Source: Mesoplasma chauliocola
GTDB taxonomy: Bacteria; Bacillota_I; Bacilli_A; Mycoplasmatales; Mycoplasmataceae
Reading direction: 5' to 3'
DNA length: 64,000 nt
Assembly: GCF_002290085.1 (NCBI RefSeq)
Contig: NZ_CP023173.1
Coordinates: 770,501 to 834,500 of the forward strand
Both the position numbers and the translations under genes were made by a program. Shown in pieces: positions 57,372 to 64,000 of this stretch (positions are counted from its first letter, which is position 1; the number at the start of each line of letters is the position of its first letter). A model generated the notes under the pieces. It did no database searches, was not told where the DNA came from, and worked only from the letters and a program-made list of their open reading frames with translations.

Positions 57372-57607
57372 ATTTGTTCCCCTTTAATTTTAATTGATTT
57401 GTTTATCTTAATAACAAATTAACTTTATATTTTTTCTCTTCTTTACTTATAGTCTCATAATAGGTCATGAGGCAGAAACACTAATCCTTTATATTAGTTT
57501 GTATAAGTTGATTTAATTATTAAGGAAAATACTTTTATGTAGAAGATGTTTTAAATTAATGAAATTTAAATAATTCAATCTAATACAATACAATTTTATA
57601 ACATTTT
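57372..57607 (-). promoter_or_regulatory. Leader region between deoD and the lipoprotein gene
   Basis: 236 nt without a gene. It contains the riboswitch at 57443-57510. Between 57510 and 57607 it is A/T-rich with several weak -10-like boxes and no clear promoter. After the aptamer, ATTTGTT (minus) and AACAAAT could form a weak hairpin ahead of GGGGAACAAAT, which includes the lipoprotein ribosome-binding site. Confidence 0.4.
57443..57510 (-). ncRNA. Purine-type riboswitch in the lipoprotein leader
   Basis: On the minus strand the paired parts are P1 ACTTATA/TATAAGT (57502-57508 with 57445-57451), P2 ACTAAT/ATTAGT around loop ATAAAGG, and P3 CTCAT/ATGAG around loop GACCTATT. The loops can form the two G-C loop-loop pairs of purine riboswitches (GG in L2, CC in L3). 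J2/3 reads TGTTTCTGCC, close to TTTCTACC, and J3/1 GACTAT keeps C74, the guanine-type specificity base. J1/2 departs from consensus. Followed by the lipoprotein ATG about 70 nt later. Fold assigned by eye. Confidence 0.75.
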
Positions 57608-62801: not shown

Positions 62802-62864
62802 ACACATGTAAGTCTCTGAATAGGTTCAGAGGCAGGTCACCAACCCATTATGTTGGCATGTATA
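62801..62864 (-). ncRNA. Purine/2'-deoxyguanosine-type riboswitch of the nup operon
   Basis: On the minus strand P1 ACATG/CATGT extended by wobble pairs (62857-62864 with 62801-62808), P2 CCAAC/GTTGG around loop ATAATGG, P3 CTCTGA/TCAGAG around loop ACCTAT, J2/3 TGACCTGC and J3/1 ACTTA. L2 ATAATGG, L3 ACCTAT and the J2/3 string TGACC.GCC match, as I recall it, the 2'-deoxyguanosine riboswitch of Mesoplasma florum, but the position equivalent to U51 is U here rather than C. C74 is kept. Ligand guanine or deoxyguanosine. Fold by eye. Confidence 0.75.
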
Positions 62865-63007
62865 TGTTTTTTATAAATTGTTCACTTTTATTATATAAAA
62901 AAAATGATCACTTTATAAAAATTTCTAAAAACTAAAATATTTTTGGAAATTTTTCAAGAAACATTTAATTCTCTTGAATTAATAATATAATACTATAATT
63001 TAAAAAA

Positions 63008-63036: not shown

Positions 63037-64000
63037 TTATTTTTTAACTTCTTTTTTTACTCTTTTTAAGCCTGTTCATTTTGTTTTTGTCATTAATTCT
63101 TTTAAATGTTTATTTGCCTTAAATTTAACTGAATTTGAAGCAGGTATTGTAATTATTTCTCCAGTTGATGGATTTTTACCTTGTTTTTGTTCCTTATGAA
63201 TTTTTTCAAGTTTACCAAAGTTTGAAATCATTATTTCTTCATTTTTAAATAATGTTTCTGACATAATTTCAAATGCTGAGTCCACAATTTTTTTAACTGC
63301 TTTTTTACTTAAGTCAGAATGTTTTTCCTCTAACTTAACTAATAAATCTTTTTTAGAAACTTGTTCATAGTGCTTTTTAATAACATATTTAGATTCAGTT
63401 TTTGAAATACCAACTAGCGCCGCTTTAGTTTCAACTACTTTAACTTCTTCAACTTTTTTAGCTTCAACATTAGTTTCTTTTTTTACAGCTGGTTTTTTAG
63501 TTCCTGAAGTTTTTTTAGCTACTGGTTTTGATTCAGTTTTTTTAGCTTCAACATTAGTTTCTTTTTTTACAGCTGGTTTTTTAGTTCCTGAAGTTTTTTT
63601 AGCTACTGGTTTTGATTCAGTTGTTGGCTTTGATTCAGTTTTTTTAGCTTCAATATTAGTTTCTTTTTTTACAGCTGGTTTTTTAATTGCTGAAGTTTTT
63701 TTATTTTTAACAATAAGTTCTTCTTCAAGTTTTTCTTCTAATTCAACAGCTTCTTGTTTAATTTCTTGTTCAGTTGCTTGTTTAACTTCAACTGGTGCTG
63801 TTGTTGAACCTTTTTCTGAAAGAATTTTATTAATTTTATTTTCATTTACTCAACTTAAAATTATTCAAATTACTAAGAAAATAATTCCTACCAATCCAAT
63901 TCAGTTGATTAACAAGTCTCAAAATATAGGTAATAAGAATGTATTGTACTCTCCTCCTGTTACACCTATTAATTTAAATTGTGCAAATGATTTGAAGCCC
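63037..64000 (-). CDS. Membrane-anchored protein with a C-terminal HU DNA-binding domain, 5' end outside the window
   Basis: 320 residues are visible. They begin in a region FAQFKLIGVTGGEYNTFLLP, followed by a membrane helix (WIGLVGIIFLVIWIILSWV, about 35-53). A linker of about 150 residues follows, first acidic (EEKLEEELI), then three Lys/Ala/Pro-rich repeats (TSGTKKPAVKKETNVEAKK type). Residues about 230-318 are a full HU/IHF domain: VSKKDLLVKLEEKHSDLSKK, VDSAFEIMSETLFKNEEIMI, FGKLEKIHKEQKQGKNPSTG, EIITIPASNSVKFKANKHLK. The frame is open throughout with TGA as Trp, so this is one protein and not HU next to something else. A GTG at the HU domain would be an internal start for free HU. Confidence 0.85.
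63455..63700 (-). repeat. In-frame tandem repeats in the HU-protein linker
   Basis: Three copies of an about 84-bp unit (period 84 bp from 63461 to 63545, then 102 bp to 63647; the longer one has an extra 18 bp coding TESKPT-like sequence). Each unit codes KKTSxxKKPAVKKETNxEAKK. The near identity of the first two copies at DNA level suggests recent duplication. Confidence 0.85.

Follow-up and report, generated by a model that had tools for sequence, protein, structure and literature searches.

The window is a 64,000-nucleotide stretch of the Mesoplasma chauliocola chromosome (G000:C1:770501-834500; chromosome length 854,780 bp). At its far end, on the minus strand, lies a gene for a protein in which two hydrophobic segments, a long linker and an HU/IHF domain follow one another. 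Residues 78-397 of the 397 are inside the window, in a frame (63999..63037) whose 5' end is open and in which TGA encodes Trp (code 4). Read past the window into the flanking DNA, the gene runs 230 bp further and is complete at G000:C1:833537-834730 (397 aa); its ATG start is preceded by an AGGAGG-type ribosome-binding site rated good.

63037..64000, minus strand: gene of the two-TM HU protein, residues 78-397 of 397
G000:C1:834501-834730, outside the window: remaining 5' portion of the gene (230 bp), with the ATG start and the first transmembrane segment (TM1)
63913..63999, minus strand: 3' part of the conserved, predicted extracytoplasmic loop, residues 78-106 (GFKSFAQFKL ... FLLPI), from the alignment
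63856..63912, minus strand: second transmembrane segment (TM2), residues 107-125, hydropathy 2.73 over 19 residues, with a conserved DLLINW motif
63361..63846, minus strand: linker, residues 129-290, with an acidic start and then Lys/Pro/Thr/Val-rich repeats, net charge about +15
63454..63622, minus strand: exact 84-bp (28-codon) tandem duplication within the linker
63091..63357, minus strand: HU/IHF domain (PF00216), residues 292-380, with an NPSTG arm
63040..63090, minus strand: basic C-terminal tail with a conserved K-W-T-G motif (TKTKWTGLKRVKKEVKK)

A sequence-only reading of the window had proposed that a hydrophobic helix, a linker of about 150 residues (acidic, then Lys/Pro/Ala-rich with tandem repeats) and a full HU domain with its arm are joined in a single frame. 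The single frame, the HU domain and the character of the linker were borne out; the number of helices had to be corrected from one to two and the linker length to about 160 aa. A Kyte-Doolittle hydropathy scan, the only basis for the TM calls, puts the hydrophobic segments at residues 15-33 and 107-125, with a loop of about 70 residues in between. The PF00216 match scores 86.4 bits (E 1.6e-24, cut-off 22.4) and includes KNPSTGEIITIPAS; the DNA-binding arm carries the NPxTG motif (GKNPSTGEIITIPAS), and NP[SL]TG is found in every mnmG-linked (class A) orthologue. Classical HU is a free protein of about 90 residues; with 397 aa and two TM segments, the window protein is a fusion containing an HU domain. 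None of the NCBIfam HU/IHF equivalogs was passed (best 61.5 bits vs 111 for IHF-alpha), and PF00216 alone matched the window protein, with no match to the HU-CCDC81_bac/HU-HIG models. A paralogue (L040) is the only one to pass HU-HIG (31.2 vs the 26.2 cut-off), with a PF00216 score of 86.9. An AlphaFold model from a two-sequence alignment had a pLDDT of 41 and was unusable.

In a 10-sequence alignment the invariant residues of the membrane domain are W62, F63, G75, P76, G78, S81, P101, D105, N109 and W110, which in class A form the motifs WF, GPxGxxS and PxxxDxxxNW of the loop and TM2. Searches with the class A membrane domain gave no significant relative in Pfam and nothing credible in the PDB. 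Across five pairwise comparisons the membrane domain had a dN/dS of 0.08-0.30 and HU one of 0.07-0.30; for the linker it was 0.41-0.68 in four pairs and above 1 in one that has very few synonymous changes. Purifying selection acts on the membrane domain and on HU but holds the linker more loosely, keeping both ends together across a free-running spacer.

The fusion adjoins mnmG in all seven Mesoplasma genomes searched and in one genome of another genus (G007). The order tilS-ftsH-mnmG-[TM-HU] is seen in G001-G005 and G007; in the window genome (G000) and G006, additional genes separate mnmG from ftsH. In the window genome dnaA opens the chromosome (dnaA/dnaN at G000:1) and the TM-HU gene is 20 kb from dnaA; in the other complete chromosomes the distance is about 15-17 kb, if those also begin at dnaA. 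The sequence-only reading had itself named two ways in which the fusion might be spurious, namely a sequencing frameshift joining two genes and an internal start that separates HU from its anchor. A frameshift or chimera was rejected, the identical fusion being present in 8 genomes, and an internal start was rejected for the window gene, in which no ATG, GTG or TTG occurs from TM2 through the first 25 residues of HU. Isolated GTG, TTG or ATG codons are found in four orthologues, one of them (GTG, in G005) with a weak Shine-Dalgarno-like match. With the architecture present in 7/7 Mesoplasma species, an AGGAGG-type site ahead of the start and no intervening start codon in the window gene, the fusion of HU with a membrane anchor is confirmed as real and not an artefact.

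The class A membrane domain was credible in 3 of the 43 genera sampled in the order; a fourth listed genus was judged a chance match because of stop codons, and weak Spiroplasma-like matches, with many stop codons and 41-aa frames, were likewise discarded. A genome-contig scan gave a match in M. grammopterae (G006) only. These searches sampled the order, and HU-TM fusions may exist in other bacteria.

Next to the HU gene lies a nucleoside-type ABC transporter with a 2dG-I riboswitch upstream (Rfam RF01510; window 62804-62867, minus strand); a second such riboswitch is at 57445-57508 on the same strand, and each scores about 65 bits. In other Mesoplasma (L038, L041, L044-L047; compare L005 3067-3538) a gene for a BmpA-like lipoprotein of about 458 aa separates the HU gene from that of the ABC ATPase; it is absent at the corresponding place in the window genome.

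The window gene belongs to a family. Four PF00216 loci were found in its genome: a free 90-aa HU, the window gene and two two-TM proteins of about 365 aa. Mesoplasma genomes have three to six PF00216 matches each, some of them fragments. The search for HU domains with transmembrane helices in relatives, which had been suggested from the window alone, showed exactly two TM segments in 24 of the 32 HU frames that exceed 130 aa. Class A is linked to mnmG, class B (277 aa) lies beside large surface proteins, class C is found in lipoprotein clusters, and there are others. In a tree of the HU domain the free HUs cluster together (97/98) and the membrane HUs fall outside that cluster; built on few columns and with long branches, it is compatible with an early divergence of the two kinds. 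By hhalign, the two-TM domains of class C and of genus g9 (83% probability) look related, whereas class A against either reached only 2.6-8.8%, and a single superfamily of all two-TM domains was rejected on this ground. The K-x-x-N / D-x-x-x-N pattern that recurs across the two-TM domains is only suggestive. The window genome carries two copies of a gene cluster, arisen by duplication, that holds the class C HU gene and the lipoprotein genes beside it (L006 514-5625, L007 5303-10984). Several membrane HU genes are broken or truncated (L082 in G014, L090/L097 in G005, L062, L069); accessory paralogues decay and the mnmG-linked copy is kept. Genus g10 has two adjoining HU proteins, 228-246 aa in length, whose long N-terminal regions contain no TM segment (L048 4983-6891, L049 5127-6836), possibly a heterodimer pair.

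Evidence on topology comes from charge and from a C-terminal module. Net charge is +3 ahead of TM1 and about 0 in the loop; two TM segments and a basic N-terminus predict that both ends are inside. In the G007 class A orthologue, HU is followed by a 67-aa module (xDGSxxIxExRSELQKxANKxR ... NLRDMTKKELIxYMRxV). This module is carried in five genera by bS6, bL20, bS16, uS5, PTS permeases, one FtsH, two-TM proteins and HU fusions (the uS5, PTS and FtsH carriers were identified by eye from sequence, without a profile search), and it is C-terminal except in class C HU proteins. HU very probably lies on the cytosolic side, because the module next to it in G007 otherwise sits on cytosolic ribosomal proteins. 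Only three carriers were found in the window genome, bS6 and two membrane-anchored HU proteins (modules at G000:C1:124393-124584 for bS6, 379007-379198 and 474764-474955); further loci are L106, L108-L110, L114-L119 and L128-L147. The module is not in Pfam, the PDB gave nothing credible, and a 295-genome sample of the phylum gave no credible match outside the five genera. It might be a docking module that holds ribosomes, membrane and nucleoid together or to a common scaffold, a lineage-specific organisation including the membrane HUs, a proposal we consider doubtful. The two-TM domain also occurs with the 67-aa module and without HU (L056 2291-8396, L096, L101, L102), in clusters with large surface proteins that reach 1273 aa; in some of these, DUF285-like repeats were identified by eye.

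The same proteins bear on the linker. The suggestion that its basic repeats are H1-like tails that bind DNA did not hold up well: Lys/Pro/Ala/Val repeats join PTS permeases and ribosomal proteins to the C-terminal module in related genera, and since these linkers share its composition, the repeats look like generic flexible spacers and the H1-like idea is weak. The linker begins acidic and has a net charge of +8.6 per 100 residues; in the PTS and uS5 linkers the value is +8 to +20. Among Mesoplasma orthologues the linker varies from 109 to 203 aa, and it evolves faster than either flanking end.

On balance we favour a role of the membrane-anchored HU as a chromosome-membrane tether that acts alongside free HU, in keeping with the attachment of chromosome to membrane that the sequence-only reading had raised for a wall-less cell. 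From an N-terminus inside the cell, the chain would pass through TM1, a conserved outside loop of about 70 aa and TM2 into a flexible cytosolic spacer of about 110-200 aa carrying HU, which would dimerise and would bind and bend DNA without sequence preference. Little sequence preference in DNA binding is established for the HU family, and it is from the family that DNA binding by this protein is inferred; the protein may also have a part in segregation. Since the gene is about 15-20 kb from dnaA and the product would be inserted co-translationally, the origin region may, speculatively, be held preferentially. No ParB_N was found in any of the seven Mesoplasma genomes, nor a ParA-type AAA_31 in the window genome, while SMC is present, which leaves room for another tether; Syn3A is also without ParB, so this absence is not special to Mesoplasma (PMC8339304). 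Against the tether count the class C paralogues, which are without the NPxTG arm, and the existence, among the matches listed, of wall-less relatives without a membrane HU. Furthermore, the invariant loop residues exceed what a pure anchor would need, so the membrane domain probably has a partner or another role.

These residues, in the loop and in TM2, also favour the view that the function resides in the membrane domain, as a sensor or as partner to some other membrane protein, with HU coupling it to nearby DNA or transcription, so that the protein would be a regulator and not a structural tether. The two-TM domain is joined to HU, to a C-terminal module other than HU, or to the two combined, and the class B and C paralogues lie within surface-protein and lipoprotein clusters; yet domains that discriminate so little between DNA sequences are a poor basis for regulation, and the mnmG-linked copy is outside such clusters. 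We consider a regulator rather unlikely. Release of HU by proteolysis or from an unrecognised start, which would make it merely another free HU, could draw on the long, exposed linker and on the membrane protease FtsH, whose gene is two genes off in most relatives, but is distinctly improbable given the lack of a start codon ahead of HU in the window gene, the retention of fusion and membrane domain in 8 genomes and the separate free HU gene already there.

There is very little likelihood of an outward-facing HU that binds DNA outside the cell, whether to scavenge nucleic acids or for attachment. The adjoining nucleoside-type ABC operon with its 2dG-I riboswitch would fit, as would the extracellular role of HU described in other bacteria (PMC9445418); the even number of TM segments, the basic N-terminus and the cytosolic module that follows HU in an orthologue, borne by ribosomal proteins, speak against it. 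Equally slight is the chance that the gene is mobile-element or phage cargo without a house-keeping role: some paralogues are indeed located among variable surface-protein genes and there are broken ones in G005 and G014, but the mnmG-linked copy keeps a constant place in 7/7 Mesoplasma, and 2.9 million viral contigs held no relative of the membrane domain, the main PHROG match being confined to the HU part. For want of viral relatives in those contigs, the idea that the mnmG-linked copy came from a phage or mobile element was rejected.

Set beside known systems, the favoured tether has partial counterparts. It shares with HU (HupA/HupB/Hbs) the PF00216 domain with its NPxTG arm (86 bits), which here is C-terminal to a two-TM domain and a long linker and is encoded apart from free HU. 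HU-CCDC81 and HU-HIG proteins (PF18174, PF18175, PF18291) also place HU-type domains in multidomain, partly membrane-linked chains, bacterial members with TM and SPOR domains reportedly having been described by Burroughs and co-workers in 2017; the window protein differs in matching PF00216 and none of those models. Mycobacterial HupB and Streptomyces HupS have Lys/Ala/Pro-rich tails and thus a lysine-rich repetitive stretch beside HU, whereas the stretch here lies between anchor and HU, is initially acidic and is similar to the spacers of non-DNA-binding proteins. Noc, SlmA and ParB-type linkers would have the same outcome, DNA held at the membrane, but, unlike the window HU, are sequence-specific and bind the membrane peripherally; ParB_N, as noted above, is missing from the seven genomes. 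A further counterpart is Rv3852 of M. tuberculosis, a nucleoid protein that binds DNA and is fixed to the membrane through a TM helix (PMC8233713), which likewise has a TM segment in one chain with a DNA-binding domain (here two hydrophobic segments and HU) and differs in that it is not described as HU, has its TM segment at the C-terminus and is confined to few mycobacteria.

A membrane-anchored nucleoid protein is thus already known, and a multi-paralogue two-TM HU family is a variant that was not found in the literature searched. Nothing on a membrane HU of Mollicutes was found either, in a search that was thin on subscription papers. A survey of HU/IHF proteins states that Mollicutes species have a single HU polypeptide and makes no mention of membranes (PMC5683647); the three to six PF00216 matches per Mesoplasma genome correct that statement. 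The question addressed is what holds and separates the chromosomes of near-minimal cells that lack ParABS. For this the mnmG-linked protein is a candidate chromosome-membrane link, conserved and encoded by one gene, in the genus to which the near-minimal model M. florum belongs.
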